This document shows positions 1,198-54,860 of a DNA stretch of 64,000 nucleotides, in pieces. The DNA is taken from contig VCMS01000188.1 of assembly GCA_022539475.1 (NCBI GenBank), positions 1 to 64,000 on the forward strand, written 5' to 3'. The notes under the pieces are model-generated. The model had not been told where the DNA came from and did not search any database. It worked only from the letters and a program-made list of their open reading frames with translations. Numbering within the stretch: position 1 is the stretch's first letter; each line of letters opens with the position of its first letter. Position numbers and translations under genes: made by a program. Source of the DNA: Gracilaria domingensis. Its lineage: Eukaryota; Rhodophyta; Florideophyceae; Gracilariales; Gracilariaceae.

Positions 1198-3083
1198 TTA
1201 CACCCCCGATGAGGGACCGGCACCGCCGCTACCGGAGGGACCCTGCGAAGGGTGCGGAACGGCGTAAGCCAGTATCCCTGCCATAGTGGTGAGATGATCG
1301 GGCACGATAATTCCAGCGTTCTGGAGACTGGCGCGCAACATCGCGATGTTCGCCGAGGAATCTCCCGGAGCGACCGGAGCTGTCGGGGCCGGAAGGACCG
1401 AAGGAACGGTAGCCGCTACAGGGGCCGGACCCACCACCGGAACACTCGCTTGAGTCGGAACATTCCAACCCACAGGAGCCTGGGGTACCCCGCCGCTGGC
1501 GTGCAACACCTGATTCGCCGCCGGTAGGTCGTTCACCAACTCCTGGTCCATCTCGACGAGTGCTCCGCCGCCTCTCCACCAGTATCCATGTTCGGATCAT
1601 CCAGATCTACTGGGGCGACCCAGTTGTCACTGAACATGAACCCAACGGGTGACGTCTGGAATCGACCGTGGCTGTTCGCTGCCCACTCGGCATACGCGCT
1701 AGTCGTCATCGTACCCTCCCATGGGCGTAAATTACACGAAATCTCCTGCTGTGGATGTCTCCTACCGAGTGAGCCGGTTCGTGAGTACGACTGGACCTTT
1801 CCCGCGTGTGGCGAACGGTGGGGGGGGGACACCGTTCACCAATCGGGACTCCATCGATAAACATCCAGACTGTATGGATCTCATCCACGTTCTCTTCGGA
1901 CCCCAAGGGTGTGCAAATCCAGCGAGCGGATAATGCTGCGAAGCATCGGCTGAATATACAAACCACTCGGTAGTTTGTCGCTAAGCCTCCCAGAGGGAGA
2001 AACGGCTGCTATGCGTGCCGCCCACTCGCCGGCATACGAGACCCCACCATCCTGAACGCGGATCGTTGATCAATCGGTAGCCGATGCTAACTCAAGCACG
2101 GAGGCAGTTCTGCAAAACACCTTTGCGGTTTACCTCCACATCACTGCCACCATCTGGTAGAGGAGGGCCTCTCGGTCTCGTATATTGGGTAGGAATCAGA
2201 TAAGCCCATCCGCAGAAGCGAGCTTTCCGCTCAAACCGAATGCGGTTGACGACCCCACCCTGGGAAGCGTTCTTTTTACGATTGAAGAAGACATAGACAC
2301 GGGGAACTCCGCCTCGGAGTATGGGGGCCGACTGTCAGAGCAACATCATCTCGATGTGGTTCGGCCATCGCAGCGTACCGCGCATGGTTCGAACGTCGCC
2401 AAGTTGTCTCCATATCGACTTCAACGCGAAAGTACGTTAGAACGGAGTATCAAACGCCATATGACGGTGGAACCAGGTGCTTCCAGGTGCACTCGACTGA
2501 GTCTCTTGTTTACGCCAACTTCCGCCGTTGTTCCGCGCGCGCTGGTTGGTTCAGGTTTCACCCTCGCGGGGTTATGTACCGGGCAGGCGGCATCGGTCTA
2601 TCGCTATTACGACTTTCCTTCTGGGATGCTGACACTATCCCGCTACGGCAGACGCCCGGTAGGAAGCCGTTTCAGGCATAACGACTCCAGAGAGTGTCAC
2701 CGTTTAACTAGAGCTAACCGGAATGAAACTAACGGTGCACGGCTGAACCGCAAACCATCACGGAGTGGATCGCGTCCTGCGAGAGATTCCTTCGATATCC
2801 AACCAGCTTGGTTCGCCATCAGCGGCATCGCTTGCGCTGAATTCCATAACGGAACGTTCACCGGGACCATCGGTTGAGACTGAGGCAGTGGAGCCGTCGC
2901 AGAACCCGGCTGAGGGTAGTTCGACGCGCTCGCCTGACCCGTCGGGTGATGAGGAAACTGATTCGGGTTCATCGGAATGACAGATGATGTACTGTGATCG
3001 AGTTCGGATACTTGAATACTCTGTTCGCTTGAGTGTGTATCGCGCTTGCGAGGTATAGAAATCGAGGAGTTGGTACCGCTCAT
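1198..3083 (-). pseudogene. Element D antisense ORF (accessory protein family), broken
   Basis: The ORF starts at an ATG at 3081-3083, 80 bp from the 3' LTR, and ends at 1198. The N-terminus is Ser/Pro/Gln-rich, followed by GWISKESLAGRD and FSRAP, which match GWISRKSLVNRD and FSRAP in element A. Near 1600-1680 SPVGFMFSDNWVAPVD matches HPVGLVFSEDYAVPSD of A. The C-terminus (LRASLQNAGIIVP then a Gly/Ser tail) matches LRADLQAHGIPIP of A. Several frameshifts lie between about 1830 and 2700. I do not recognise the family. The overlapping plus-strand frame at 2185-2877 is a shadow. Confidence 0.6.
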
Positions 3084-3162: not shown

Positions 3163-4135
3163 TGTAGAGCAACGCATTTTGCGTGGTTATCAGGATGATG
3201 CGCCTCATATACTCAGGGGAGTGATACGAGGATGCACTCGAAGAGTTATGAGTTGGACCCAATTTTGGCGGTTACTTTTGGAATGGCTTTCCCACAGTTA
3301 CCTGTAATCAGGGTTGCCATTGCTGGCCAATACCGCTAGGTGGACGCGTGTACTACACCACCGTGTGTGTGCATATTACGGGACAATAGGTAGTGCACCT
3401 GAGGTGCCTGACACTGGGCTAGCCACGTGTACGGACCCCTGCGGGTGTGCACCACGTGTACATAGTTAGTTTAGACCTACTTAGGTGAGCTCGACCTCGT
3501 CGTCGCGAGCACCTTTGTAAAGTCAACCCGAGCACTTCTAAGTGAACTCTTTGTCGAGTAGCGCTCTCCTGAGTGGACTCTACACGAGTGAGGCTCTGGC
3601 GCCAACCGCCTACGTGGGTTATCACTCTCGCGAGTATAGCCACGTCTGGTTACGGTGGTCCTACCCTCTCGGTACCTTTGAGGAACATCTGTCGTTGATG
3701 TCGGGACCTGAGGGTCGTACCGAGGAGGTATAGGACTAGATTACGAAGTGATCCGACTCTGTATAGAGTTTTGCCGTGTTTACGGAAACCCGTGCATTAC
3801 CGTTGGAGGATCTCGCCCCGCTCCGGGCACAGTGCGAGGAGGCCCTACCCGTCGCGTGTGGGTGTTGTTTGGTTGTTGTTTTCTGTTGCTTTCCCTCTCG
3901 GGACTACACCTGTCGTTGGTCGTGTTTCATCGTTGCCGATACCACCCCATCTCTGGAGTTTCTCATCGTTTCCTCACCACGTGGCCTAGCACCTCTGTAG
4001 GTATAGCCAGTTGCCACTTCGGCCTTACAACCGAGTTACGGTGGTACAGAGGGCTCTGTCACTGGTCTGCCATCTCTCACGAGAGCGGACCTTCGGACAG
4101 TCTGGTGGGTTTCACTCTTCCGAGTTTGCCCCACA
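3163..4135 (+). repeat. Element D 3' LTR (973 bp)
   Basis: The LTR starts TGTAGAGCAACGC after the polypurine tract and ends TTTGCCCCACA, matching the TGTAGTGCAACG...TTTTGCACAACA termini of element B. The middle (about 3390-3720) is rich in tiny hairpins such as GCACC-TGA-GGTGC, ACCC-CTGC-GGGT, ACTC-TCGC-GAGT and GACC-TGAG-GGTC. Only one LTR of this element is visible. Confidence 0.75.
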
Positions 4136-6839: not shown

Positions 6840-7856
6840 TGTGGAGCAACGGCCTTCCGCTATCGGATGCGTCATGCCGCTCATAATGAGATGGTACCGA
6901 TGGTCGGTGACCTGGCGAAGTTATGAAAACTCCCTTTAATTTTGGGCATTTTTTGGAGGGTTTTAACACAGCCTTGATAGGTGAATCCTCTGTAGGAAGT
7001 GTATAGTAAGTGGAACAGTTGGCCACGTGTAGAAGTTGGCCTTCAGATAATTGTGCCACACCCGCTGGGAATTACTCCACCCCCTGACAGTCGGTTGCTC
7101 ACGTGTAGAACCCTCGCGAGGTGTGCACCGTAGACCTAGTAGTAGTATATATGCTCGGGTGATCTCACCCTTGAGCCTCCAAGTAAATGGACAACTGAAT
7201 CTACACTCAAGTCGAATCCTGTTCAGGATCGGGCTATAGTAGCTTGCTGCCTACGTAGGTCTACGACTCCATCAGGAGAGTAACCACGACTGGTATCGGC
7301 GCTACTACCCCTCAGGGTCACTAAGGAAGCACTTGTCTCGCCATCTTTGGATCTTTGATTGTCTTTACCGCTGTCTCGGTTGTCTCTTGTTGTTCCTTGT
7401 TTTGTTATTGTTGTTGATTCTTGTTGTTGTCACTCTGTTGAGTCTCGTTGTTTACACTTGTTCACCTGGTTCAGGTATCGCTTCCGCTCCAGTATTGGGT
7501 TTACTTTTGGCGCCTTTGAGTGCGTCGCTCCGCTGTGGGACCTGTTCCCGCCGGTTGGCACGGTCTGTGGCTCCGCTCCAGTGGTTTCTACCGTGAGTTT
7601 TCCCCCGTTTACACGGTCCCCTTTTCTTTCCCTTTGTTCAGGTTCGGGTCACACTCCATCTCTGGATCTGCACCGTTCTTTGCATCCCACCTCTGTAGAT
7701 ATAGCCAGTCACCGTCCCCGGTCTTATACCCGGCTTGTCACCCGACTCGAGTACGGACAGAGGGTTCTATCGCTAAGTCTATCCCTCACAGAGAGTAGGA
7801 CTCGGACATCCTAGTGCAGATTCCCCATAGCGTTTATCGCAGGGTTTTGCTCTACA
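6840..7856 (+). repeat. Element A 5' LTR (1017 bp)
   Basis: The LTR begins TGTGGAGCAACGG and ends TTTTGCTCTACA, and matches 18153-19166. It contains compact hairpins GGGTGA-TC-TCACCC (7157), ATCCTG-TT-CAGGAT (7216), CCTACGTAGG (7250), CTCC-ATCA-GGAG (7267) and ACCC-CTCA-GGGT (7317). The promoter, which by LTR biology should be here, cannot be pinpointed. Confidence 0.85.
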
Positions 7857-7878: not shown

Positions 7879-8068
7879 GGTACAGGACCATAACTGAATT
7901 GTTGTGTCCATTGGAATCTGGACACTTGGAATCCTTTTTTCGGAAGATTGACATTTATAGCCCCTTTCTGCGGGTTGTGATTAGATTTCTCCCATCCACT
8001 TTTCGGTAGTTCGGAAGTCTCGTGATTTCTCACAAAATTATCCCAGAGTCCAGTTGGCTACCTGCGGT
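7879..8068 (+). other. Element A leader between primer-binding site and gag
   Basis: About 190 bp of untranslated leader. In element B the equivalent leader is about 420 bp (25911-26328). I see no open frame or clear motif in it. Confidence 0.5.
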
Positions 8069-16022: not shown

Positions 16023-18083
16023 CTATCCGCCAGTGGAGGGAGCACCGCTTCCCGTGTTGGGATTCTGCGCGAAGTACTCGCTTGCGAGAGCCGCGAGCCC
16101 CGCAACGGTGTTCACTCCCGGTGGGATCGGAATGCCATGAGCCTGGAGGTCAGCACGAAGGAAAGCCACACTCTCAGCCCAATTCGCAGGCTGAGCAGTG
16201 AGAGCAACCAAGGACCATCCCGCAGGGGCTTGAGCGCCGTCTGTTGGGACCGCTGTCGCGTTAGGATCCGAGTTCGGAACTCCCGTCAGCTGTGCTGGCC
16301 CGGCTACGGTGGCTATCTCATCATTGTCCAACATTGGATCAGTTGCATCCGACGGAACGGCGTAATCCTCGGAAAACACTAATCCCACTGGGTGACCGAC
16401 CGGCATTGCGCGGGGCATAGCCGCCATTGCGGTCGCTTGCTCCTCGGAGATAAACTGTCGCTCCCACCGGTCGTAGTACACCCAGACCCCGGAACGGGTG
16501 GAAATTCGCCACGGTGATCGGTCTCGGAATCGCTGTCGCCTGTCAGGCTGCCAAGCTACCGGAACTCGGTCCCAATTTATCCTGTCGATGACATCCAGCA
16601 ATTCTCTAACCTCTTCCTGGTTAGCCTCGGAACCCAAGGGGGTAACGAGATCAATCCTTCGAAGGAGCCACCTCAGATTCGGAGGGAAATACCACAGACG
16701 GTAATCGTCATGGACATCCCACAGGAAATGAACCGTGACGCGGGCAGCTCACTCGGCAAGAATCAAAGACCAATAGCCCGAGTTGGGATTGTCTATCAAC
16801 CGTGAACCGATGTAGTAGATACTCGGAGGGAGTTCAGCGAAACACCCCGCGGGGACCTCTACGCGGCTCCAGCACGATGGCAGGGCCACGTATCGGGATT
16901 GCAAGGCGTCGAAGCGCAAACGATCAACTTCCAAGTTTGGATACGGAACTAGGAGTCCCCGACGGGAGCGCGCATTCCGTTCGAATCGGACTCGTCTCTC
17001 GAAGTCGTAGAGATCCTTGTTGTGTCTCTTACTCCTGGAGAGATATCAGAACTCCGCCTTGAGCAAGAGACGATTCCATAAGAGAATACCAGGATCAACC
17101 TCACTGAAATGGTATCGATGCTCCGCTTCCAGAAATCCCGCCAAGGCGTTAACATAGGAAATCTCACCGTAGGTACGGTAATGCAAGATGCTGAAGTCAT
17201 ACTGAGCCGGAATCGGATGGTCATATCGCAATCTTTCAACTCTGGAATAAGCGAGTCGCGCCATGTCCCGACGTGCGTGGTCATGGGACTCTCCGCGGTC
17301 GCAACGAAGCAAATGCGGCTCCACCGCTATGCCGGTTTGCCACTCGCGAGAGCGCACCGCAACTCGGGGAAGCCCACCTGGGAGTATTCCGTGCACGGCA
17401 TAGGAATCGATGAGAGCATCATCTGCTATCGCTTTTGGGTGAAACCACGGGGCGCGGGAGAAGATCAACCCCTCACGTCCGGTATCCCGGTTCACAAGAG
17501 ACTTTCTACTAATCCACCCACGAGGGTTCACCGTCAACGGTACGGCCTGCTCGGCATCCTAGGCGAGAGCGATTGGATCATAGGGCTGTTGCACCGGAGC
17601 CACGGGAGGAGCCGGAGGTATTGGAAGAGGCGCACCCGGATGGGGATAAGCTTCATAGAAGTTGAAAGGAGCTACCCCTTGCGGGATAGGCTGAGTCGGA
17701 ACCTGAGGAGGCAGGAAACCTGGATGGTTGTACCCCGCGTAGGGTTGAGCGAACGGACCGCTGTACGGATTCCCCTGAGGGAGAGGAGCTGACTGGAAGC
17801 CACTAAAAGTACTGTGGAAGCTCTGAGGAGGCTGTCCTTGTTAGGAAGCACTGCCCGAGGGGACCTCAGAAGCCGCTTGCGGAGCTGACGACGAATTCTC
17901 CGGGACCGGGTTGGTATGGAACAAATTCGGATTCATTCCTGTCGAAGGAGAAGAAGAATCAGTAGGTACTGGTATCGAACGCCGAGGTATCGGCAGAGAA
18001 GAAGTAGTTGTATCCGAAGTCGGAGGCGAAAGCCGCTTGCGTGCAAGAACCGAGTGGTCGGTCGAACCCCTAGGGGATGTCAT
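16023..18083 (-). pseudogene. Element A antisense ORF (accessory protein family), about 686 codons
   Basis: The ORF starts at an ATG at 18081-18083, 70 bp from the 3' LTR and opposite to gag-pol, and ends at 16023. The identified pieces lie in one frame, with stops at 17841, 17046 and 16749; 17540-17840 was not fully traced. Motifs in order: Ser/Pro-rich N-terminus, GWISRKSLVNRD, FSRAPWFHP, RGESHDHARRDMARLA, RTYGEISY, KAEF-stop-YLSR, RYVALPSCWSRVEV, YYIGSRLI, RLWYFPPNLR, HPVGLVFSEDYAVP and a C-terminal LRADLQAHGIPIP plus Gly/Ser tail. Equivalent blocks occur in B, C and D. Two stops are single transitions relative to B (CGA to TGA at 17046; TGG to TGA at 16749). I know no function for this family. 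Confidence 0.75.
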
Positions 18084-18152: not shown

Positions 18153-19166
18153 TGTGGAGCAATGGCTTTCGGCTATCGGATGCAACATGTCGCTCATATT
18201 GAGATGGTACCGATAGCCAGTGACGTGTCGAAGTTATGAAAACTCCCTTTAATTCTGGGCATTTTTTGGAGGGTTTTAACGGATCCTTGATAGGTGAATC
18301 CTATGTAGGAAGTGTAAAGTAAGTGGAATAGTTGGCCACGTGTAGAAGTTGGCCTTCAGATAGCTGTGCCACGCCCGCTGGGAATTACCCCACCCCCTGA
18401 GAGTGGGTTGTCCACGTGTAGAACCCTCGGGAGGTGTGCACCGTAGACAGTAGTAGTATATATGCTCGGGTGATCTCACCCTGGAGCCTCCAAGTAAATG
18501 AATAACTGAGTCGCCACTCAAGTCGAATCCTGTTGAGGATCGGGCTATAGTAGCTTGCTGCCTACGTAGGTTTTCGACTCCATCAGGAGAGTAACCACGA
18601 CTGGTATCGGCACTACTACCCCTCAGAGTCACTTAGGAAGCACTTGTCTCGCCATCTTTGGATATTTCATTGTTTTTACCGCTGTGTCGGTTGTCTCTTG
18701 TTGTTTCTTGTTTTGTTCTTGTGGTTGATTCTTGTTGTGGTCACTCTGTTGAGCCACGTTATTTACATTTGTTCGCCTGGTTCAGGTATCGCTTCCGCCC
18801 CAGCATTGGGTTTATTTCTGGCACCTGTGAGTGCGTCGCTCCGCTGTCGGACCTGTTCCCGCCGGTTTACACAGTCCGTAGCTCCGCTCCGGTGGTTTCT
18901 ACCGTGAGCTTTCCCCCGTTCATACGGTTCTCGTTTTCCTCCTTTGTTCAGGTTCGGATCACACTCCATCTATGGATCTGCACCATTCTTTGCATCCCAA
19001 CTCGTAGGTATATCCAGGCACCGTTTCCGGTCTTACACCCGGCTTTTCACTCGACTCGAGTACGGACAGAGGGTTCTATCGCTCATTGTATCCCTCATAG
19101 AGAGTAGGACTCGGACATCCTAGTGGAGATTCCCCTTTTGCGCTTATCGCAGGGTTTTGCTCTACA
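18153..19166 (+). repeat. Element A 3' LTR (1014 bp)
   Basis: This is co-linear with 6840-7856, starting TGTGGAGCAATGG and ending TTTTGCTCTACA. Many single-base differences and a few short indels separate the two LTRs. The sequence immediately after it belongs to element C, not to the sequence that flanks the 5' LTR. Confidence 0.85.
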
Positions 19167-20426: not shown

Positions 20427-22362
20427 CTACTGGCCGGCACCATCGCCCTCATTCTGAGGAGGCATACCTCCGAGGCGTTGAGCTAAGGCGTCCACCATAG
20501 CGGTGACGTCGCCAGAGGCTGCGCTTGCGCCTAAGCACGAGCCGCGGAGGAAGCGAGCGATAATCGCACCTTCGTTGACACCTGCAGGCGGGGGATGAGC
20601 TGCAGCAGCGGCAGCCGCAGGAGCCGGCTGAGCCGGAATAGGAGCCGGGAGAGGTACCGGAAAAACCGCAGGAGCGGGAGCGATGAAGTCAGCCGCCGAG
20701 GCGGAACCGAAAACCGGAGCAGAGCCGGCGCTCTCCCCCACAGGAGTCGCGTGGACCTCTTCGATCATCTCGATGTCATCGCCTTCCGTGTCCTCGGGTT
20801 CATTATCCGCCATTGGGTCATTCCCGAGGTACTCTCGGTAGTTCTCGTCAGAGTTCACGAACCCGGTTGGGTGATGGGCCGGCACGCGCCGGGGAGCAGA
20901 ACGGAGCTCACTCGCCTCGTCAGCGGAGATCTCCCGATAATCCCACGGGTCGAAAAAGATGAAACCGCCCGCGAGAGCGGTATTTCTTCCCAGACCTGGG
21001 CCGGAACCACCCGAGTTCGGAGAATCACCACGAACACTCTGAGACAGAGGCACCTGAGTCCAGTCGACACTATCGATGTAATCGAGAAGGCTCAGCACCT
21101 CGTCCTTGTTGGCGCGACACACGAGGGGGACTTCCAAGTGCAAACTTCGGATGGCTGCCCGCACGCGGGGTGGAATGAACCACAGTCGATACTGGTCATA
21201 TGCCTCTGCGAGGATGAACGCCACCGCGCGAACTGCCCACTCAGTGACGAAAACGGACCACAACCAGGTAGTGGGATATGTGAGCAGATAAGACCCTAGA
21301 TAGGTGAAGACCGGGGGCAACTCGATGTAGCACCCCTGGGACGCCTCTAGGTAGCTCCACCACTCTGGTAGAGGAACATATTGACCCTGTCGTGCGCCGC
21401 CGCGATGTGGCGGATTTCAACGTTCTGATACGGAGCGAAATACCCAAGATGGAATCGAGACCGACTCTCATGGCGGATGAATTTCTGAAGGAAGTTTGAC
21501 CGCGAGCGGCGCAGAAGATAACGAAACTCAGCCCGAAGAATCGGTCGTGTCCAGCACATGGCTTCCTGTCGTGCAACGGGCATACCTCGCGAGGCGAAGG
21601 TTTCCAATTCCGCTAAGCGGGCGCAGTAACTACTTTCCCCGCGGGTGCGGTAATAGGCCACATCAAAGTCCATCCCCCGGTGGGATTGGGAACTCGAAGA
21701 GCGCCAGGCCTTGCCGTTTGTAGGCCACGGACACGAAGTTCGCGTGAGCCTTTTTCCGGGATTGCCGGTTCTCTCATGCCACCGGATGAACAGGGATCGC
21801 GAATCGCGTTCGCCAATCTCACGAAGTGGCCACCATCGCTGGGAGGTCCCTCGGAAGGGTGTTGCGCCCATCGGCATACTCAGTAATGAGGCTTCGTTGA
21901 ACACCGCAGTCGGGTGAAACCCCGGCACAAGCCGGAGACGCCTCGCATGTCGCCAGTTTGCCGGTTCGAGCCCTACAAGGAAGTTGAAAGATGGCCAGAC
22001 CACGCCGGGGTGGAAGCCGACGACGGGCCCCGCGAGAGCGGCATGTTGCGCAGAGAACCCAGCGACGTTGTTCTGTTGCCCCGCGGACGGGTTGGAGCCC
22101 TGTTGAGGGAGTGGAACGGATCGGAATCCGGTGAAGTCCCCTTAGCGGAATGGCGGTTGTTTCGGAGGCTGGTTCGGTGAGACATAGTGAGGTCTAGTTC
22201 CGGTGTCGGAGGAAAGTTGACCGCAGGAGCGAGAGAGCGTTCGGTACTCTGAGGAGGTGCGGCTACTGCTGGTGGAGGGAGCACGTCGTTGACGTGAGAA
22301 GGAGAAGAACATACCGGAGGACCGGGGTGCGTCGCACTTATATCTTTTTCGCTCGACGCCAT
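20427..22362 (-). pseudogene. Element C antisense ORF (accessory protein family), frameshifted
   Basis: The start ATG is at 22360-22362 (MASSEKDISATHPG), 44 bp from the 3' LTR. Three blocks in different frames cover 22362-21973, 22003-21347 and 21320-20427, so about two frameshifts are present. Motifs: PGFHPTAVFNEASLL (A has APWFHP), DFDVAYYRTRGESSYC, CWTRPILRAEFRYL (B has CWTRPLLRAEFRYL), YDQYRLWFIPPRVRAAIRSL (B has YDQYRLWFIPPRLRQLIRAL), IDSVDWTQVPLSQSVRG (B has IDGVDWSQVPLSQSARD), HPTGFVNSDENY, an Asp/Glu-rich stretch, a Pro/Ala-rich linker and a short C-terminal helix with a Gly tail. The 21320-20427 block alone is 297 codons and open. Confidence 0.7.
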
Positions 22363-22405: not shown

Positions 22406-23228
22406 TGTAGTGCAACGCTCATCTATTAGGAATTTCGCTGGACTTAGTCATAATTCCCATTCACGGGTTTGCCTGGCGCACACCAGTATATGACTAGTAG
22501 TAAGTAGTGGTTGCCGTCGAGATGGTTTGGAAACGTGGCACACGGTGGAGCTGATTGGAGGTTGGCCACCACACGTGGGCGTTTGCTACAATTAGTGGGA
22601 TGTTTAGTTAATATTATTTATTAATTTTAGTGAGGACACTACTTAGTGCGACGGCGTCGCCGCCGTCGCACCAGTAAAGTTCCCCAACCAGGGTGATCCT
22701 ACTTCAAGGATCTTGGCTCTATAGATATAGATATATATATATATATATACATATGTAGATATAGATAGATATAGATATCTATATCTATATATATATGGCT
22801 AGCTAGCCACTCTCGCCTTCGGCCGTGCACAACTCCTTATCGGAGGGAGTTCCCATTGTCACGGTGGGGCTATCCACCCTGCGTCCCCGCAGAACCCAAC
22901 TTTGGCAGTGTTTCACCTTTGTTGTTTGTGTTCGACCCTGTATAGGGAATACCCCGGCGATACGCCGTACCTCTCTTACCTCCTTCTCTTTCCCTCTCTT
23001 TCCCTTTCCCCACTCTGTGGTTTCGTCCCTCCTTCGAGGCTGCTACACTCACGTGTGAGTCACATTTCTCTGCTCAAATCTCAACGCCCCGTCGTGACGG
23101 TTTGGCCCCGGTCTTACACCCAGCTAGTTGTGCCATTCCAGATAGGCTCTGTTCCCTGGGTTGCCCTCAGTAGAGAAATATCCCGAACGTCTTCGTAGTG
23201 TTTTCCTGCTTGCAGGCATTGCACTACA
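22406..23228 (+). repeat. Element C 3' LTR (823 bp)
   Basis: It starts TGTAGTGCAACGC like the LTR of B and ends CATTGCACTACA. Its length is close to the 818 bp of B. It includes a TA-rich hexamer microsatellite (22722-22797). Confidence 0.65.
22722..22797. repeat. AGATAT/TATATA microsatellite inside the element C LTR
   Basis: About 75 bp consists of AGATAT and TATA units that form a near-palindromic block. It is specific to this LTR and absent from A, B and D. Confidence 0.8.
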
Positions 23229-25071: not shown

Positions 25072-25889
25072 TGTAGTGCAACGCGATTGCGGGACTCCTT
25101 CGCCGATGCGATTCATAACATGCACGGCGATGTCGGGAGGTGGTGGCACACAGTATGAGTAACTGGTGAGATCAGCCCATTCTTGGGTATACTTAATATT
25201 AGAATTAGTGTTATGAGGTGCACGGCCTAGCCGGTGAGTGACACACGTGTGGGAGGTTTGCACCCATTCATTGGGGTATTTGAAGTAGATATTTGTAGCA
25301 TATCTGCTGTACCACACTGACAGTGGGCCAACCTACTGCAGTACTTACAAGGTTGAGCCGCACCCATTGCTGGGGGAGTAAACGAACCCAACCGAGTGTT
25401 CGGCTCTGATGTTTCACCCTTGGTGACCGATATCCTCCTCCCGGAGAGTCGACACCTTGTGCAGGGTTCATCATCCGCCTCGCGGCATCATGAACACCAC
25501 TACCGCTTTCGCGTGTTTACTTTGTGTGTGTTTTCTTTATTTCTGTCCCTGTTATACAGGTAGCACTACTTGGTGTACCGGTGCATACCGTTCGTGGCTT
25601 GACACACTCGCGTGGGCTATTACCGCTCTCGCGTGTCATCGCCACACTCGTGGGTACCGTGTGCTACGCACGTGACGCTACTGCCGACTTGTGTCGTGTG
25701 CTCTCTACCGCTGGAGGCGTCTTCTTCGCCGCTTCGCTCCCTCCATTACTTGAGAAGGGTCGACCCCGGTCTTACACCCGGCATTGCCGTGTCGTACCTG
25801 TGAGAGCGCTCTACTGCTGTGCTCGCCTCTTGAGAGAGGGTCTGAACCGCCTCTGCGTGTCTTTCCCCATCGCTGGGTTTTGCACAACA
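25072..25889 (+). repeat. Element B 5' LTR (818 bp)
   Basis: It starts TGTAGTGCAACGC and ends TTTTGCACAACA, and matches 36520-37337 over its whole length. Small hairpins include CCGA-GTGT-TCGG (25392), TCACC-CTT-GGTGA (25414), CTCC-TCCC-GGAG (25435) and CCGC-CTC-GCGG (25475). In the 3' LTR the first hairpin reads CCGG-GTGT-TTGG, so both arm changes still pair as G-U. Confidence 0.9.
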
Positions 25890-26328: not shown

Positions 26329-28413
26329 ATGGTGTCGGGCAAGCGCTCGAGCCCTACGAAGTCTCGCTCCGTTGGCTCTGGCTTGGCCCCGCGTTTGCGG
26401 TCTGTTCCTGATCCCCTACACGGTGATGGAAAGAAACCCGGAAACCGGAAACAGCCTGTCAAGTCGTCTGACGCCCCAGTGGCTGGGCCCTCATCTGCTC
26501 CTTTGGAGGGTCTTATACCCGCTGTCGCGGCGAAAGACGCGCTCGTAAACGAGTTGGAGGCTCAAGTTCGTATGCTTGAGGCTCAGACTGCTGTCATGAG
26601 GAGTTCTCATGAAGCACTCGTTTCCGAGGTCGACACACTTCGTTTGAAGGTTGACTCAGCCCTCAACGGAGGTGTATCAGAGGATCTACGTATTTAACGG
26701 AAGGATGTTAATGCCCTCTTGGAGGTTCCCGAAGGATATCCCAGTTTCACCGAGGAGGTCGACACGAAGTTCATTCGGATTCTTAGCCGTCTTGAGACGT
26801 TAGAGGCCACCATCAGTGAGGATGACGGCCCTGCTGCCGCCTCTGCGGGAGTGTCTCGTGGTACACGTGACCGGAAGTCCGGGAAGAGTCGCTCTAAGAA
26901 GAGGAATGTCGACGAGTATGACTCGGATTCGTCACAGTCTTCTGGTATTTCAAACCGCTCGGCGGGTTCCTTATCATCGAGCTCGTCAAGTGACGGTGAA
27001 CGTCGTGCTCGTTCTACGCGTTCGCGGAGTTCTACGTCCACCTATGGTGTTGTTGGTACCCGGAAACGGGTGCGAAAGCATTCAGGTTTGAGGGAACTGG
27101 AGCCGACGAATCCCTTGTTCAAAAGGTTGTTATCTTACCGGTATTACCGTTTGGAATATTCAAGTCTGAATCGGACGCCCCGTGGCACGGGTAAGGTGAA
27201 GGACTGCATCAAACGCATGTCCTTAACCTTTCGCAACCAGTTGTTCACTGGGGAGGATCCCATTCTGGTGCTTGACTTTCTTTCACGCTTTGTAGCGGAA
27301 GCTGACATCCTCGGCATGAGTGAGGGGCAAGCTTATGTTGCCTTACCGTATTTTCTACGTAGAATCGCTGAAGATCAGTATAACTCTGTAAGAGGTTCAT
27401 CTCGCGCCTCTGAAGGAGGGGTCACCTGCTGGCCCGAAGCAGTGCAGTATTTGTTGCGCTGGTATACGACAAATACCTCTATCGAGGAAGCAATCACCGC
27501 GTTGCGGGAGACGAAACAACGCCCGAAGGAGTCGGAAACCGAGTACTCGGTACGCCTGAATAAGGCATTCCACCGTTGTGATAATGTTTACTCCTCAAAC
27601 GAGCGCTGTACGCTGTTTATCAACGGATTGAATCCGGCTATTCGTACTCTGGTTGCCCAGCGACGGGAAGACCGGAAGAAGACTACCTACCTGGAGTTTG
27701 TGCAGTACGCGAAGGCGGAGGGAGACGCCTTGCGCGCACGCCCCGGATACCGGGTTTCAACCAAAGCGTTGCACCTCGAAAGAGGGTCGTCATCAGCTTC
27801 ACTGCTACCGCAGGAGTTTTCTGGCCACGATGTGGATAACTTACATCTCGCTCAGGTGGACCTGGATTCTATCCCGACTACGGAGTTGCCTTCTACTTCA
27901 GAAGCCTCGTCGAAGACGGAAGATGCACTGCTTTACGCAGAGCGTCCACGCGTTCGCGGTCCTCAAGTACCCTATTCAGGGAGTCGTTACCAGCGACCTG
28001 GTTGGGTACGCCCGCGAACGGTGAAGTTCCAAGACCCACGGAGTTCCGGAAGACCACCCCTGATCTGTTTCACGTGTTACAACCACGGTCATGCAGCTCC
28101 GAACTGCAACCTCTCGATGAGGGAAATGCCGACGGTTGTGGCGAATTTTGAAGCGCTGACCCCAGCCGAACAGGCGTTAGTGCCGGTGACCGCATATCTG
28201 CGTGCGAAGGCTGAGTACCCCCGTAGGGTGTCTGCTGCAGAATTGGCTGCGTTACTGCACTCTGGTTCGACCCAGGTCAATGTTTCACTGGCTCAAGCCG
28301 TGGCGGGAACCGCTGCCGCGGGTAGTTCTGTCGTTGTTCCACAGAAATCTGCAAAGGTACCTGGTGCACAGGACGCCGTTCCCGTTAGAACGGATGGAAC
28401 TCAGTTAAACTGA
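26329..28413 (+). pseudogene. gag: Element B gag polyprotein, one in-frame stop
   Basis: A 694-codon frame runs from ATG 26329 (MVSGKRSSPTKSRS) to TGA 28411-28413, interrupted only by TAA at 26695-26697. Order: basic N-terminus, coiled-coil-like helices (NELEAQVRMLEAQ; ILSRLETLEATI), a Ser/Asp/Arg stretch, a capsid-like core (GEDPILVLDFLSRFV; ASEGGVTCWPEAVQYLLRWY; RLNKAFHRC) and a canonical CCHC zinc knuckle (CFTCYNHGHAAPNC, about 28067-28108). The stop is one change from a sense codon and lies before the core. Gag packages the element RNA in the cytoplasm. Confidence 0.85.
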
Positions 28414-29414: not shown

Positions 29415-32400
29415 GAATCGTCGCGCTCGTCTGCGTCGGACCCGTCTCAGACGGTTGAACACACGAATGACTCGGAAGTTAGGACCGTTCCTACGAGTTA
29501 TGACAAGATTGACCCTATCAAGGAGTTAGAAGAATTGAATCTCGGTCATGTACCGGTTTCATACCGTGAGAAGTTGCGCAACATGTTGCGAGAGTTTACA
29601 CCAATGTGGGATGGTTCCCTCGGAGAGATTTAAACTACGGAACACCGGATTGACCTCCTGCCGGAGATCAAGCCGATTGCTCAGCACGCTTACATGGCAG
29701 GCCCGAAAGCACGGGAAGAGGAAGAGTTTCAGATCAACAAAATGCCCCGCGCTGGCGTGATAGAACCGGCTCAGTCGCCGTGGGCATCTCCAGTTGTACT
29801 GGCTCCGAAACTCGATGGGTCCTGGCGCTTTTGTATCGACTATCGTCGCTTGAACGATGTCACCGTCAAAGACGTGTACCCTCTACCTCGTATGGACGAG
29901 TATATCGACTCGCTTGGCGATGCTACTGTGTTCTCCACTTTGGATGCAAACTGGGGTTACTGGCAAGTACCAGTTAGACCGGAAGACCGTGACAAGACGG
30001 CGTTTACCTGTCATTCAGGATTATACCGCTTTAAGCGTATGCCGTTCGGGTTAACGAACGCCCCCGCTACGTTTCAGCGTGCTCTGGACATTTTGTTAGC
30101 TCGCTTCAAATGGCGGAGTTGCTTGGTATACCTCGATGACATCATCGTGTTTTCCAACAGTTTAAACGATCACCTCGAACATGTTCGGGAGATAATGACC
30201 GCTTTGCGGGATGCTGGAATTACTCTCAAATTGAGGAAGTGTGAGTTTTTTACTGACTCAGTGAAGTATCTGGGGCATGTTATACGTCCAGGACGGTTAC
30301 TGATCGAGGACGCTTGCGTGAAGTCCCTCAAAGAGGCGAAGCACCCCACTACACAGACAGAGCTAGGCTCCTTACTGGGGCTATGCAACGTTTATAGACG
30401 GTTCATTTCTCGCTTCGCGAAGATCGCGGGACCGCTCAACGAACTCGTGAAGAAGGGACAACCCCCCAAATTGGGACCACTTACCCCCACGCAAGTGGAG
30501 GCCTTCAACTCTCTTAAAGAGGCTGTTACTACGGCACCCGTGTTAGAGTTACCGAAGAACGGGTTGCTGTACACCGTGGATACGGATTCGAGCGATTACC
30601 AGATTGGCTGTGCTCTCTTTCAGACTACACCCGAAGGGGAACGCAAACCAATTGGCTATTGGTCTCGTACACTCAACGTGCACGAGCGCAATTACTCGGT
30701 ATCCGAAAAGGAGTGTCTCGCCATGATATCGGCTTTGCAGACTGTACGACCATATCTTATGGGTGTGCAATTTACCTTCAATACGGATCATTCCGGCTTG
30801 CGTTGGTTAATGTCAGTCACAGAGCCTTCCGGACGCTTAATGCGTTGGCGTCTTCGACTTGCCGAGTTTGACTACGAGTTCACCTATAAGAAGGGTTGTT
30901 TGAACGCGTAAGCGGATGCTCTTTCACGTTTAGGAACGGAAGGTGAAGCTTTACTCGTCGATGACGAGGATGAAGATATCCCCTGTTTTCTCATGGAGGG
31001 GGGTGATGAAAACTACGACATCGTGTCGGACGACATCTGTGATGATTTGCTCGTCGCAGACGGTGAAGACCCGGAATCCGGTACATTCGTCCCCATTACT
31101 CCAGAAGAGCTCGTGCGGGAACAGCAATCTGAGCCGTTCTGTACGAGGATACGCGCCCAAATTAATGGTGGTGCTAACATCCCGTTCGGGGTTAACGCAC
31201 AAGGTTACCTCGTCAGAGTGGTTCGTTCTACCCTACAGATTGTGGTTCCTCACTCCTTACAAACAAGGGTATTGCATCTCTCGCATCACTCGCGGATGGC
31301 TTGCCATCCGGGTGCTAAGCGGTTATACACGACACTGCGTTGGGATTTCTACTGGCCCGCGTTAGCGTTAGACTGCTACACCACCGTGAAGGCGTGTACA
31401 CATTGTGCTCGCGAGCGAGTTAAACAGCGTCGCCATGCGAAGAAACTAACACTTTTCCCCGCAAGGGCGCCGTTGGAGTTTATTGCCATCGATATACTCG
31501 GTGCGTTCTTGCGTACTTCCCGAGGAAATCGGTTCTTACTCGTTATTACGGATAGATTCAGTAAGCTAGTCCGGACAGTTACGTTGAAGTCGATTACAGC
31601 ACGCAGTGTTGCGGAGGCATTCGTTCGCCATTGGGTTATGGTCTCCGGTCCCCCGGTCAATCTCCTCTCGGATAATGGTCCGCAGTTTACTGCACGTTTC
31701 TTCCAGGATGTCTGTCGGATACTCGACGTGAAGAATCTCTTCACGACGACGTATCATCCCCAATGCAATGGGCATGTCGAACGGTTTAACCGGACAATGC
31801 TCTCCACGTTGCGGGCTTATACTGTTGAACACACGAAAACTTGAGATCTCTACACGGATACCGTGACATATGCGTATAATACGCAAGTTCACAGAGTAAC
31901 TGGTTTACCGCCCTTTGAGCTCGTGCTCTCACGGACACCACCGCCAGTTGCGATCGAACCATCAGGAAAGCTGGATATGTCACCGTCAATACGGGATCAC
32001 TACTTGCAATGGAAGCAGTGGTTATCCGCAATGGTACCCGTCGCCAGGTCTTCAATGGCGAAAGCACAACACGCCTACAAGCGGAACTCTGATGCCCGGG
32101 TACGGAGACCACTACCGCCACTGAAAGTGGGAAACCTCGCCTTTGTCAGGAAGGAGTACTACAACCCTGAAAAGGAGAGGCGCCACAAGCTTTCACCCAT
32201 CGCTGATGGTCCATACCGCGTTATTAGCGTGAATAAGGACACAGTCGTACTGGAAGTTGGCGACGCTCATGAGCGTTTCTCGCGCGATCGCGTTGTGCAG
32301 GGCCCAACCGTACACAGGGAAGTAGTTTCGGATTCACAGCAGGAAGCTGGACAGACACAGAACCGAGAATTCTCGTCGCAGAACACTACACCTACTGTGG

Positions 32401-32548
32401 GGCTTCGCCACCCTGCAAGGGGTCTCGCAGAGGTATCGATTATATCGTCGCAAGCCGAGATATCGGAACATACACGGCTGGTGAAATTGCGTTTCACAGC
32501 GTCTATTACACCGTCAACAGACGTGATTACTGCTCCCCGTAACGCACC

Positions 32549-32568
32549 ACCTAAGGAGGGGGAGGAGG
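32549..32568 (+). promoter_or_regulatory. Internal polypurine-tract copy 2 in element B pol
   Basis: ACCTAAGGAGGGGGAGGAGG lies in the variable linker between integrase and chromodomain. It shares 15 consecutive bases with the copy at 29397 (CCTAAGGAGGGGGAG). The surrounding protein sequence is not related, which argues for a nucleic-acid signal rather than a protein repeat. Confidence 0.4.
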
Positions 32569-33944
32569 ATTCACGCCTCGTTGCGGAGAGTGAGTCACCG
32601 GTGTCGCTACCGTCGCAGCACCGTGATTCACGGGAAGATAATGAAGAGGAGGCGGGGTTGCCTCAGGACACCGTCGAAGACGTAGTTGCTACGGACACCA
32701 CTGTCAGTGGGGAGGATTACCCGCTATCGCGTGTTGAGGCCGCGAAGGACGCGCTGCAGTCGGCCGCTGTCGCGCAGAACTCCGCGGAGGATGCACAACC
32801 TTCTACGAAGGATCGCGACCTTTCTGGAGGATACCGAACGCAACGAACGGACTCGAGATTGTCCCAGGCTACTGGTATCGCTCACCCGCTGGGGGAATTG
32901 TCGCCAGAACACGCGCCCATCGCCTCTTCGGCGCAGGACGCGGAGCATGCTCTCGTTCGCGACGTTACCACGGCAAGGCCGGAAGTTGATCAAGAACACT
33001 CGACTTCTCGGCAGAGTGAGGCTACAGCGAAGCTGGATACTGTATCACGGAGTATTCCGGACGCGCAGTCGCCGCAGACCGTCGCTGACGACCGCCACAT
33101 ACCGCCTTCGCGGGCGCGCACTAAGGAAGTTACGGCAGATCCCGGTACCTTAGACACTGCAGAGCAGCAAGAAGAGGAGACGCTCGCTGAAGCGAAGATC
33201 ACACACCCCGGTTCGGGTAATGGTAGTGTACCGTTGCACCCAGCAGTGGGGAAGTCGCAAGTCGCACGTCATGACGTTTCGCTAAGTCATGACGGCGCAC
33301 CGCTCGTTGGAGATACGGATTACACCCCTGATTTAGGGAAAACGCACACTGCAGCTGCAGGAGCGCTTGCGCACCACAAATCTTGGGGCGCGCAGCGCGC
33401 GCCACACAGTGGGGCAATCACAGCTCGCGGCAGTGCCACCACCGCGAACCGTCGCGTGTCGTCACGTGAACCGGCACGTGCCGTGGTGAACAATCCGTTT
33501 CCGCGTCCGCCTTCACCGTCAAGACGGGAACTACCGCGTGAACTAGCCGTTCGCGGACCCGCCGAAGCGGCGAAGCTGCTTGAAGAAGCCCGGAAACGGG
33601 AAGCGAACACTCAACAGAAGACACGTTCACCGCCGAAGGCGTCAGTCGAGACTCACAGCACCGCTGGTGACGAAGTTACGGCACAGCCGCAGCGCGCTGA
33701 CGACCCTTCGCAGGAAGAGCTCGAGCGGGGCGTATACTCGAAAGAGTTCGTCGTAGACCACATCGTGGGACACAGTTGGAACCCGAAGGGGTATGTTCAG
33801 TACCAGGTACGCTGCTATGGCTATCCGCCGTCGTGGGATTCGGACGAACCCGTGGAGCACTTACCCCGATCGAAGATCGTGCAGTACCATCGTCGAACTA
33901 ACACGGCGTTGCCGGCTAACCTACATCAAGCGATGGTCGGATAA

Positions 33945-34415
33945 CACACGTCGTTGGAGACGGAGGCTTATCGCGTACCACGCACGAACGGTTCTACGAA
34001 CGACAACACCCAATCGAGGAACACTGCGACAACCTCCAGAGGAGTACTGTACCGCTACTCACGTGGTGAGGAGACACTCTATGAAGAGGAAAGTTGAAGT
34101 TCGAACAGTCATGCCCTCAGGAATAGGAGACTATAGATACACTCGAAAGAGGAAGAAGACTCTATGAAGAGGAAATGAAGCTCAGAAGAGAAAGAAGAAC
34201 TATATGAAGAGGAAATGGAAACTCGTAAGAGGAAGATTACCCCGAAAGGAAGTTATGAAGTATGTACCTTGAGAAAGGAAAGAAGCCTTGAAGTTAAGAG
34301 AAGTCACAGTTTTACTGGTTGTCGTAACTATGTTGCGGCTCACTACTCGAGCCCGCAACTGCCTAGCTAATGGGTATTACCCAGGGGGGACTCCATGGAG
34401 GAGACGTTGCACGAG
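33945..34415. other. Element B purine-rich spacer with GAAGAGGAAA repeats
   Basis: Between the pol stop and the antisense ORF stop the plus strand is strongly purine-rich. A unit close to CTATGAAGAGGAAA occurs near 34079, 34162 and 34202. No gene is supported. Equivalent purine-rich spacers lie in A and D. Confidence 0.55.
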
Positions 34416-36440
34416 TTACTCGGAACCAGGCTGATTGTTCGCGTTCGCGAGGTGCACCAGGAGAGCATCGCGCATTTGCGAAACGTCCCCCGACGCCGCG
34501 TCGGAAGCACCAGGCTCGCTGAGGAACTGAGCAATCACGGCAGCCCGTACTTCATCAGAGATACCCGCGTTCGCGGCTTCGTTCGGCGCAGCCGACGCCG
34601 CCATCGCAGAATGGGCGGCACTCTCCTCTGGAGTCGAGACAACCACTGGTGGGTACAGGAACCGCTTGAGGCGCAGAAGGAACATTCACCGGGGTCGACA
34701 AGGCCGCGTTAGCACCCGCTTGCGGACCTGGCACTGCTGGGGCAGGTACTGTCCCCTCCACCGAAGCTGCCGCGAAGTCGTCGTCGCCGTACTCGTCACC
34801 GTCATCGGGAGCGTCGTCGACCATGATGTTCTGGTCCCCAACAGGGTGGAAGAACTCATCAGTTATGATGAAGCCCGTAGGGTGCCCCGGAGGGATGATT
34901 CGCTCGGCGTTCCGAAGGAGCTCCGCCTCGGCGTTGGTAATCGGCACCCGTGTCCAGGGGTCGTAATAGATGTAATCACCGGACAGTGGGGACCGGCGAC
35001 CCGGAGACCGATCAATAGCGGAATCGCCTTCGTCCCGCGCGCTCTGCGAAAGAGGAACCTGACTCCAGTCGACGCCATCGATCACTCGCAAGAGGCACAT
35101 GACTTCCGAGAAGTTTCCATTACCGCCAAGCGGGATGGTGAGATCCAAGGCTCGGATGAGTTGCCGCAAGCGCGGGGGAATGAACCACAGTCGATACTGG
35201 TCATATACCTCGTCGAGAAGATATACCGCTGTTCGCGATGCCCACTCCGTGAGGACAACGCTCCACCTTCCCGTAAACGGGTTTGTCACGAGCCTACTAC
35301 CCACATACGTGAGACAGGGGGGGAGTTCCACGTAACAGCCACGGCAGATCTCCACGGACGCCCACACAAAGGGGAGAGAAACATATCTCCCACGCATGTG
35401 ACGCGGACGAATCCGATTTGACTCCGTGTTTTGATACGGGATCAGGTAACTCCATCGGGAGCGGGCACGTCGTTCGGGACGGATCATTGTTTGAAGGTAG
35501 TTGGACCGCGGCACGCGTGAGAGATATCGAAATTCTGCACGAAGAAGCGGACGGGTCCAGCACAGGAGATCCTGGTGAACGGGGACGTTCTGGTAACGCT
35601 CCACCACACCGGCGAGCGGGGCAAGATTCTCTCCATATTAGATTTCGCCGAGTGTTCGGAAGAAGGCCACGTCAAAACGGAAGTTCGCCAGAATCGGGCG
35701 CTCTGAGTACGGGCGAAACATGCGCATGTGCGCTACGCGAACCATGGCCGCCCGAGCGGAGTTGTGCGACTGACCACGATGGTGGACGAGCGCGTTGGTA
35801 GGCACGGTAATCCGGTAATGCCAGTCGAACGTCACCGTCATCCAGACTGCACGTTTTCTGGGAGGTGACCACTGCCATCGGCATACGCCTCGAGGAGGGA
35901 ACGATTGGTCACGCCTTGCGGATGAAATCACGGAGCCCGTAAGAACAGTGTGGGATTGCTGCGAGCGTCGACGTTGTCGAGTTCGTCATACGACGCCCAC
36001 GCGCCCGCATGCGGGTTGACTACCGGTTGAACTGGGACAGCAGGAGCGATCCAGTTCCACTGCGGTACAGACGCCGGGGGCGGGAGTTGACCACCCGTCT
36101 GGGGAAGAGGCGCCGTGTGAAATCCCGGATTGACCGGTTCCGGAAGCGGAACGGCAGCGGAAGACGGCTGTGAGAGAGGCACTCCAGAGGAGAAAGGGTG
36201 TGAAAGCCCATCGAAACCACCAACGTATTGGTTCTGAGACCCGCCAGGCGGTTGGTTGCTACCCTGGTTCGGGTTCGGCATCGCAGGAAGCGCGCGAGGA
36301 AGAGACGAAAGCGCTGGAAGCGAGAGAGAAGGGAGAGCGCGCCGAGGTATCGGAGGAGACACTACCGCAGTACGCGTGGAGAGGGGTTGACCGGAGTCGC
36401 CGTTAGAAGAGACCAGGGAGGCCAGATTGGAGACCGTCAT
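34416..36440 (-). pseudogene. Element B antisense ORF (accessory protein family), about 675 codons
   Basis: The start ATG is at 36438-36440, 80 bp from the 3' LTR, on the strand opposite to gag-pol. Order: Ser/Pro/Gln-rich N-terminus of about 150 residues, FLRAP-stop-FHPQGVTNRSLLEAYA, RGQSHNSARAAMVRVA, DVAFFRTLGEI, CWTRPLLRAEFRYL, RGRYVSLPFVWASVEI, YVGSRLVTNPFTGRWSV, YDQYRLWFIPPRLRQLIRAL, IDGVDWSQVPLSQSARD, IYYDPWTRVPI, HPTGFIITDEF, an acidic stretch, a Pro/Ala/Val linker and a short C-terminal helix. There are stops near 35928 (TGG in A, TGA here) and 35638, and frameshifts near 35870 and 34680. It has no similarity to env, gag or pol that I can see. A nucleic-acid-binding, particle or silencing-related role is possible but unsupported. 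Confidence 0.75.
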
Positions 36441-36502: not shown

Positions 36503-36519
36503 CCCTAGGGAGGGGGAAA
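36503..36519 (+). promoter_or_regulatory. Element B 3' polypurine tract
   Basis: CCCTAGGGAGGGGGAAA abuts the 3' LTR start TGTAGTGCAACGC. Confidence 0.75.
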
Positions 36520-37337
36520 TGTAGTGCAACGCGATTGCGGCACTCCTTCGCTGATGCGATTCATATCAGGCACGGCGATGCCGGGAGGTGGTGGCACACA
36601 GTATGAGTAACTGGTGAGATCAGCCAATTCTTGGGTATACTTAATATTAGAATTAGTGTTATGAGGTGCACGGCCTAGCCGGTGAGTGACACACGTGTGG
36701 GAGGTTTGCACCCATTCATTGGGGTATTTGAAGTAGATATTTGTAGCATATCTGCTGTACCACACTAACAGTGGGCCAACCTACTGCAGTACTTAGTAGT
36801 TTGAGCCGCACCCATTGCTGGGGAAGTAAACGAACCCAACCGGGTGTTTGGCTCTGATGTTTCACCCTTGGTGACCGATATCCTCCTCCCGGAGAGTCGA
36901 CACCTTGTGCAGGGTTCATCATCCGCCTCGCGGCATCATGAACATCACTACCGCTTTCGCGTGTTTACTTTGTGTGTGTTTTCTTTATTTCTGGCCCTGT
37001 TATACAGGTAGCACTACTTGGTGTACCGGTGCATACCGTTCGTGGCTCGACACACTCGCGTGGGCTATTACCGCTCTCGCGTGTCATCGCTACACTCGTG
37101 GGTACCGTGTGCTGCGCACTTGACGCTACTGACGACTTGTGTCGTGTGCTCTCTACCGCTGGAGGCGTCTTCTTCGCCGCTTCGCTCCCTCCATTACTTG
37201 AGAAGGGTCGACCCCGGTCTTACACCCGGCATTGCCGTGTCGTACCTGTGGGAGCGCTCCACTGCTGTGCTCGCCTCTTCAGAGACGGTCTGAACCGCCT
37301 CAGCGTGTCTTTCCTCATCGCGGAGTTTTGCACAACA
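36520..37337 (+). repeat. Element B 3' LTR (818 bp)
   Basis: This is the full-length partner of 25072-25889, with the same termini. It is followed not by genomic sequence but by element B leader sequence. Confidence 0.9.
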
Positions 37338-37498
37338 ATTGGTCTCCCGACTTAGAAGTCGCGTTGATCCAGCAAGTTGGTTTTCTGATCAATTTCCGGT
37401 TTGCCGGTTCATATCTGGTCGTGGAGATACAATAAACAGTTTGTATTGGAGGGCTTTGCCGACAGACGTCGTGTTGGTACTGCTTTCTACCGTGTGCT
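37338..37498 (+). repeat. Duplicated element B leader segment behind the 3' LTR
   Basis: ATTGGTCTCCCGACTTAG and the following 140 bp repeat the primer-binding site and start of the leader at 25890-26040. The copy stops within TGCTTTCT, where it switches to LTR sequence. Confidence 0.85.
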
Positions 37499-37722
37499 AC
37501 GCACGTGACGCTACTGCCAACCTGTGTCGTGTGCTCTCTACCGCTGGACGCGTCTTCTTCGCCACTTTGCTTCCTCCGTTACTTGGGAAGGGTCGCCTCC
37601 GGTCTTACACCCGGCATTGCCGTTTCGTACCTGTGGGAGCGCTCTACTACTGTGCTTGCCTCTTGAGAAAGGGTCTGAACCGTCTTTGCGTGTCTATTCC
37701 CATCGCTGCGTTTTGCACAACA
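37499..37722 (+). repeat. Partial LTR (3' portion) of element B type
   Basis: ACCGTGTGCTACGCACGTGAC to TTTTGCACAACA corresponds to the last 230 bp of the 5' LTR (from about 25659). It ends the element, and the next 5 bp (TAGAG) resemble the 5' flank TAAAG. Confidence 0.85.
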
Positions 37723-49532: not shown

Positions 49533-49987
49533 AGTAGACTTTAAACTCCCTACAATGTCCGTCACGATGTGTCGTGAACGGCCGGTTGCCGCCGGTGGCC
49601 GTGTCCGTTGAAGCATTACACAACACGGCATTACACGCACCGATTGCAGCTGTTGTGCACCGATGCACGCACAGTTGTTCACGCGCTGCCTCCGCCGGCG
49701 ATCAAAACCTTGCAAGCTGATCTCGCCGGCTGTGTTCACCAGTCTCCTCCCTCGTCGTCGCTCAGCCTTTGCGCCTTCGGCGCCATTCGCGCTTCGCGCC
49801 CTTTTGCGCACTCCTCCGTTATCTCCTCGCCTTTGGCGCCCCCTGGCGTCATTTGCTACCATCGTTGTCGCTCAATCTACGCCACACGCCCTCGTGCTCT
49901 CCCGCACAGCCAACAATGCCACACTCTTCTTGCTACTGGCTTCCCTCTGTCCCGCTTAGCCTTGGTTGATCGACGTTCCCCGCCCTT
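49533..49987 (+). repeat. MULE left terminal inverted repeat (455 bp)
   Basis: It starts AGTAGACTTTAAACTCCCTA and ends CGACGTTCCCCGCCCTT. The right copy differs by only scattered bases (for example the second base). It is pyrimidine-rich on this strand. Confidence 0.9.
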
Positions 49988-54405: not shown

Positions 54406-54860
54406 AAGGGCGGGGAACGTCGATGGACCAAGGCTGAGCGGGACAAAGGGAAGCCAGTAGCAAGAAGAGTGTGGCATTGTTGGCTGTGCGGGAGAGCACG
54501 AGGGCGTGTGACGTAGATTGAGCGACAACGATGGTGGCAAATGACGCCAGGGGGCGCCAAAGGCGAGGAGATAACGGAGGAGTGCGCAAAAGGGCGCGAA
54601 GCGCGAATGGCGCCGAAGGCGCAAAGGCTGAGCGACGACGAGGGAGGAGACTGGTGAACACAGCCGGCGAGATCAGCTTGCAAGGTTTTGATCGCCGGCG
54701 GAGGCAGCGCGTGAACAATTGTGCGTGCATCGTTGCACAACAGCTGCAATCGGTGCGTGTAATGCCGTGTTGTGTAATGCTTCAACGGACACGGCGACCG
54801 GCGGCAACCGACCGTTCACGACACATCGTGACGGACATTGTAGGGAGTTTAAAGTCTAGT
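54406..54860 (-). repeat. MULE right terminal inverted repeat (455 bp)
   Basis: This is the reverse complement of 49533-49987 with few differences. The outer end reads ACTAGACTTTAAACTCCCTA on the minus strand. Confidence 0.9.

Follow-up and report, generated by a model that had tools for sequence, protein, structure and literature searches.

The window analysed here, a 64,000-nucleotide stretch of Gracilaria domingensis DNA, holds four related elements, D, A, C and B, each with a gene or gene remnant on the strand opposite to gag-pol. Element B is bounded by a 5' LTR (25072..25889, plus strand) and a 3' LTR (36520..37337, plus strand), both defined from the sequence and from alignment of the LTR pair, which is 96.7% identical over a 972-base aligned stretch extending past the LTR. 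Between them, the plus strand carries a 564-aa sense ORF in the gag position (26719..28413, 23 lysines) and pol (29694..33944), in which a domain profile search revealed RVT_1, RT_RNaseH, Integrase_H2C2 and rve in that order, distributed over an RT and RNase H part (29694-30911), an integrase part (30993-31844) and a C-terminal part (31863-33944) with a chromodomain match below cut-off. With its LTRs and with RT, RNase H and integrase in this order, the carrier is a Ty3/gypsy LTR retrotransposon. A spacer without strand assignment (33945..34418), part of the exchangeable cassette described below, separates the pol stop from the stop of the antisense gene, and a polypurine tract recognised from the sequence (36508..36519, plus strand) precedes the 3' LTR. 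A copy of the sequence that follows the 5' LTR directly adjoins the 3' LTR of element B (37338-37722), and a partial LTR (37488-37722) comes next after that copy in a tandem arrangement. Elsewhere in the window, two 453 bp inverted repeats (49535-49987 and 54406-54858) are 97.8% identical and lie ~4.4 kb apart, perhaps reflecting two elements in opposite orientation.

The initial annotation had proposed that D, A, C and B share a conserved antisense gene in the slot between pol and the 3' LTR, and tblastn with intact relatives indeed detected the same gene in all four slots, on the strand opposite to gag-pol, converging on pol and ahead of the 3' LTR, all as claimed. The start had been placed 44-80 bp from the 3' LTR; we measured 43-79 bp from ATG to LTR, the LTR coming after the polypurine tract: 79 bp in B (36440/36520), 69 bp in A (18083/18153), 43 bp in C (22362/22406) and 79 bp in D (3083/3163), those of A, C and D being counted by eye. 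None of the four window copies is a long open frame as had been supposed, since all contain stops or frame changes, and the longest ORFs listed in the slot measure 350 aa (B) and 297 aa (C). By tblastn and frame reading, the element B gene (34419..36440, minus strand) is broken into three frame segments (36440-35847, 35847-34651 and 34649-34419) with two stops, the segments matching the protein P0001 at 93, 91 and 71%. The element A gene (16026..18083, minus strand) occupies one frame with four internal stops and is 45% identical to P0010 (tblastn); the aligned stretches of the element A LTRs (5' copy 6840..7856, 3' copy 18153..19166, both plus strand) are 90.3% identical. The element C gene (20430..22362, minus strand) consists of three frame segments with one stop and matches P0002 at 61-82% (tblastn), with the 3' LTR beginning at 22406. 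Finally, element D, whose 3' LTR begins at 3163, retains a remnant (1198..3083, minus strand) with at least 14 stops in every minus-strand frame, whose matches within 1563-2972 are 28-37% to P0002, P0008 and P0010 and are split over two frames (tblastn).

The claim of a conserved gene is nonetheless correct, because 16 of 20 loci fetched from elsewhere in the same genome hold frames of 636-685 aa that are stop-free from the first Met onward. We searched the genome (77.9 Mb, 680 contigs) with the 350-aa piece of the element B copy, scoring 116 of 1218 candidates, and obtained at least 121 match rows for the antisense gene, some of which are two pieces of one copy; the 20 loci were chosen from 121 rows mainly for long open frames and also for variety. 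Two of the 16 (L012 and L024) finish in a shifted tail, and the other four loci have frames of 476-584 aa. By our own reading of the table, a clear sense ORF of at least 300 aa lies upstream at 17 of the 20 loci; the sense side of L019 is obscured by N runs, and L024 and L028 are without a sense ORF, L028 having 85% pol DNA. The genome also contains 12 phycobilisome matches, of which ten fall on contig C680, and among the database relatives found for the antisense protein one comes from the red alga Gracilariopsis chorda; the host is therefore a red alga and not the oomycete that had been presumed. Among the papers searched, none brought an oomycete, a retrotransposon and an antisense ORF together.

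Coding capacity and lysine avoidance

To judge coding status we ran 11 codon comparisons. In nine of ten scored pairs dN/dS was 0.17-0.37, well below 1, and over the core (about 365 codons; 329 in one pair) it was 0.14-0.24 in all five pairs. The tenth scored pair (L021/L024), which includes the shifted C-tail, gave 0.69, and the close pairs L021/L022 and L021/L026 gave 0.60 and 0.87, the latter two being expected since most differences between such decaying copies arose after insertion; these three ratios lend selection no support. In the same elements, pol yielded dN/dS of 0.32-0.90 in the five scorable of seven pairs. Across 19 ORFs, the terminal stop is the only one in the gene frame, and the other five frames of each ORF contain 4-27. 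One opposite-strand frame also has a low ratio (0.23-0.45), which follows from its sharing third positions with the gene, yet it carries 15-38 stops in the compared pairs. A plus-strand gene as the cause of the conservation was thus excluded by the frame-specific dN/dS and by the stops in the other frames, and the dN/dS values together with the absence of such a plus-strand explanation back the initial proposal of an accessory gene under purifying selection. Judged by its codons, the gene is almost certainly protein-coding and under selection.

The predicted protein has a distinctive make-up: P0001 has a Pro-rich N-terminal part, an Arg-rich core (pI 9.7) and an acidic tail (pI 4.1), and a transmembrane-like segment is absent from 15 of 16 proteins (no 19-residue stretch reaching a hydropathy of 1.8). 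Pfam assigned no family, the best match (E 0.36) being far under any cut-off, and a search of solved structures with P0002 as sole query returned one hit at E 0.14. Two structure predictions were poor (pLDDT 50.3, pTM 0.35 and pLDDT 56.6, pTM 0.47), and because the models are poor the fold searches with the second of them are uninformative (best E 3.7; Foldseek viral library empty at E 0.001). Database relatives are few: a first protein search gave P0009-P0012, a second P0013-P0016 and a third nothing new, each scoring just the 7996-7997 candidates that share most words. P0009-P0016 are 30-45% identical to P0010, and relatives in other sources stand at 36-44% identity. An IMG/VR scan produced 34 pattern matches, none of them confirmed.

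The most striking compositional feature is the near absence of lysine (K). P0001 (681 aa) contains 50 R and no K, against 44 K in pol of the same element; 18 of the 19 ORFs contain 0-3 K, the exception being L024 with 7 K, three of them in its shifted tail. The broken window copies retain 6 (A), 6 (C) and 0 (B). From position-specific base use 10.5-11.3 K are expected in four genes, corresponding to Poisson p values of 2e-5 (L014) and 1e-5 (L027) for 0 K and of 2e-3 (L021) and 1e-3 (L025) for 2 K. A stronger test, because it is free of overall composition, compares AAR with AAY codons: the L014 gene has AAR:AAY of 0:32 versus GAR:GAY of 26:34 (Fisher 1.4e-6), and pol of the L014 element has AAR:AAY of 44:32. 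AAR was depleted in all six gene copies tested (p 7e-8 to 8e-3) and in none of five pol sequences. Similarly, Arg-to-Lys replacements account for 0 of 110 changed Arg cells in the gene versus 46 of 232 in pol (four overlapping pairs each), and in the single pair L014/L021 for 0 of 47 versus 15 of 76 (p 4.7e-4). An origin of the lysine deficit in base composition, or in some constraint acting on the plus-strand RNA, is a disfavoured and very improbable reading: the gene is GC-rich (58-62%), position-specific base use predicts just ~11 K and the Poisson p for L021 and L025 is not under 1e-3, but AAR occurs 4-18 times in each of the two other same-strand frames versus 0-3 times in the gene frame, AAY is common in the gene, GAR and CAR are undepleted, and pol and the gag-position ORF contain about 4% K. 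At the level of codon use, avoidance of lysine by the predicted antisense protein is demonstrated. Relatives from other sources have 1-9 K in 383-662 aa (0.2-1.8%), so the lysine poverty is old and most extreme in this genome. By the published definition of a lysine desert (a stretch free of lysine that spans no fewer than 150 aa or 50% of the protein, as given in the consulted part of PMC10665810), 15 of the 16 proteins qualify, with runs of 183-681 aa, and P0016 (383 aa) has a run of 122.

Cassette exchange and a gene-less lineage

The gene is tied to pol in orientation: among 106 pol rows, 68 have an antisense gene downstream, none of the 68 on the same strand, and a pol converging on the gene lies no more than 3.5 kb away at 50 of 53 gene loci, again with none on the same strand. 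It is less tied to any particular pol. When L021 and L025 were compared in 50-base steps, pol proved 92-100% identical throughout the 3.6 kb fetched (one step 87%), identity was 34-92% between ~40-90 bp past the pol stop and ~120 bp into the LTR, and the remainder of the LTR was back to 90-100%; pol pS was 0.059 versus a gene dS of 0.855. The pair L021/L022 displays the reverse pattern, with a gene dS of 0.042, a pol dS of 0.399 and 65-83% identity in the remainder of the LTR. On counting combinations for 53 gene loci against 143 pol rows (pol classes 78-100% or 41-65% to L021), we observed all four combinations of two gene types and two pol classes (30, 13, 6 and 1), the fourth being the single locus C83 (pol 65%), which may represent a third pol type. 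These comparisons make it very likely that a single unit, made up of the gene, the spacer and the opening 120-170 bp of U3, is exchanged between pol backbones. The initial annotation was therefore correct that the gene is kept although the elements have diverged, but the sharing partly reflects exchange instead of vertical inheritance. In L014 versus L010, the first 164 aligned gene codons are identical and the C-tail and spacer are 76-88% alike, as in mosaic copies that would point to further exchange within the cassette.

Since the U3 tip and the gene travel together, the tip would, on the simplest view, contain the promoter that drives the gene. A TATA-like motif in the tip, recognised by eye, is too weak to claim. 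By eye, too, the first ~30 bp of the U3 tips contain a short inverted repeat with different letters at the same place in each U3 type (L014 at 6074, L021 at 5984, L025 at 6014 and L046, oriented, at about 2389), possibly a conserved hairpin.

The other 38 of the 106 pol rows have no listed gene match downstream. Six of these gene-less copies (L045-L050) were read, and all six contain ~2.2 kb of unrelated sequence between the pol end and the LTR. Compared with L014, the stretch at the pol end is 88-89% alike, the LTR is 93-95% alike with the exception of its first 150-170 bp, and the pol C-terminal protein is 87-97% alike. Pol frames of 1851 aa are present in three of the six, and the copies have been amplified, with mutual identities of 98.7-99.9%. 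Their spacer has 40 genome matches (75-100% identity) and follows 27 of the 38 gene-lacking pols, the other 11 being without it. A plus-strand ORF of 150 aa is found in the 2.2 kb spacer of five of the six copies. The existence of this lineage, which has long pol frames and no gene, shows that an element can do without the gene in cis. Absence of the ORF from intact relatives had been named beforehand as a sign against a gene; such absence does occur, in this sister lineage with its long pol frames, and the gene is still coding.

Known antisense genes and possible roles

Antisense extra ORFs between pol and the 3' LTR are described for the plant elements Grande (gene23), RIRE2, Retand (TRP28, PF04195) and PvRetro13, and the plant aORF-3R genes are portrayed in the sections consulted as having many copies and unknown function (PMC7264820, PMC11963269). 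The red-algal gene resembles these plant genes, as far as those sections describe them, in being antisense to pol, between pol and the 3' LTR and present in many copies; its position and orientation are those of an aORF-3R, and as regards presence 'in all or most copies', the figure here is 38 of 106 pol rows without a listed gene match. It differs from them in its red-algal host, in having no TRP28 match, in its near-zero lysine content and in being exchanged as a cassette together with U3. Membership in the Retand/TRP28 family (PF04195) was rejected, as none of 11 family members matches and TRP28 had no genome match at E 1 in a search whose control set held no plant and so provided no positive control. 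The comparison with Grande and RIRE2 made at the outset thus holds by position, but the accompanying statement that no equivalent had been described does not, since the Botrytis cinerea gypsy element Boty is reported, in the portions consulted of PMC7264820 and PMC8365987, to carry an antisense extra gene, brtn, outside plants. By that description, brtn shares with the red-algal gene its status as an extra gene, the antisense orientation and a Ty3/gypsy carrier outside plants. No red-algal equivalent and no lysine-free retrotransposon protein were found in literature listings and abstract openings, a coverage with subscription journals mostly outside it. The kind of gene is known (Grande, RIRE2, Retand, Boty), and the family and its features are apparently new.

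Our leading reading, to which we give an even chance, is that of a separately transcribed accessory gene with a promoter in U3, which would encode a stable, Arg-rich, nucleic-acid-binding protein acting in trans. The gene would form a self-contained unit facing pol, with its ATG 43-79 bp from the 3' LTR and its 3' end in the spacer adjoining pol, and would be driven from the opening 120-170 bp of U3, read in reverse. Its product would be a soluble protein of ~636-685 aa, with a Pro-rich N-terminus, an Arg-rich core and an acidic C-tail, that may be nuclear and trans-acting, with nucleic acid as its target. The DNA or RNA of the element itself would be the likeliest target, and the effect would be higher expression or relief from silencing. 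It is only by charge and by analogy that action in the nucleus and binding of nucleic acid are suggested. HTLV is described as having an antisense promoter within the 3' LTR (in the part consulted of PMC7264820), and the antisense proteins HTLV-1 HBZ and HTLV-2 APH-2 as having a nuclear location (in that of PMC11963269), although these belong to primate retroviruses and the red-algal protein is without any Pfam match. Lysine may have been purged most simply to avoid turnover or modification by ubiquitin or SUMO, and the cassette may be swapped by recombination, through template switching, during reverse transcription, with crossover sites just past the pol stop and within U3. To the promoter in U3 and to this reason for the lysine loss we give about even chances. 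In a bolder version, which we regard as possible but doubtful, portable cassettes comprising U3 promoter, gene and terminator would supply a new family of lysine-free, Arg-rich retrotransposon proteins, which would serve the whole population of elements in trans; elements lacking a cassette would be parasites of those that have one, and lysine would have been purged to escape ubiquitin- or SUMO-based host control.

Unlikely, in our view, is that the gene encodes a second structural protein, Gag- or nucleocapsid-like, that packages RNA in the manner of foamy virus Gag. The latter is described, in the excerpts consulted of PMC3705266 and PMC3705263, as Arg-rich and almost lysine-free, and on those excerpts it is the closest retroelement precedent we found for the lysine-poor, Arg-rich make-up; the shared composition (rich in Arg and Pro, almost no Lys, and in 15 of 16 proteins nothing resembling a transmembrane segment) speaks for such a role. 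Yet foamy virus Gag is a sense-strand, structural protein with no detected homology to the red-algal one (no Pfam Gag family matched, and the Foldseek viral library, queried with a poor model, was blank at E 0.001), the gag position of element B is filled by a sense ORF of its own, with 23 K and no profile similarity, opposite-strand expression is hardly what one expects of a structural protein, and copies lacking the gene multiply. In this connection, the idea that the antisense protein is an inverted gag copy was rejected for lack of similarity, the gag-position ORF of element B being the one such sequence compared.

We consider somewhat less probable again that the gene is a passenger, captured and riding along by recombination, and either dispensable or serving competition between elements. 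Exchange from backbone to backbone and absence from one lineage would fit a passenger, but purifying selection on the gene is no weaker than on pol, and the relatives at 36-44% identity in other sources likewise argue against it. That an antisense RNA is what matters, through dsRNA or silencing control, with the open frame incidental, is scarcely credible and disfavoured by the dN/dS values: the consulted part of PMC7264820 discusses antisense transcripts with a regulatory role in other elements, but the frame-specific constraint, the stops in the other five frames and the frame-specific avoidance of AAR would all be left over.

Lysine deserts are described, in the portion of PMC10665810 consulted, for ubiquitin ligase subunits and mycobacteriophage proteins. 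Those are host ligases or phage proteins and the red-algal ones are retrotransposon-borne; the main text of that paper contains no word beginning with 'transpos'.

These results bear on what antisense extra genes do in LTR retrotransposons, a class of genes now placed in red algae. Here a selected gene, recognisable by its near-zero lysine mark, occurs with and without closely related pol, and the natural gene-plus and gene-minus lineages within one genome make it directly testable whether such a gene acts in cis, acts in trans or is not needed. If the lysine loss is an escape from ubiquitin or SUMO, it would be a retroelement counter-defence that can be read from sequence alone.
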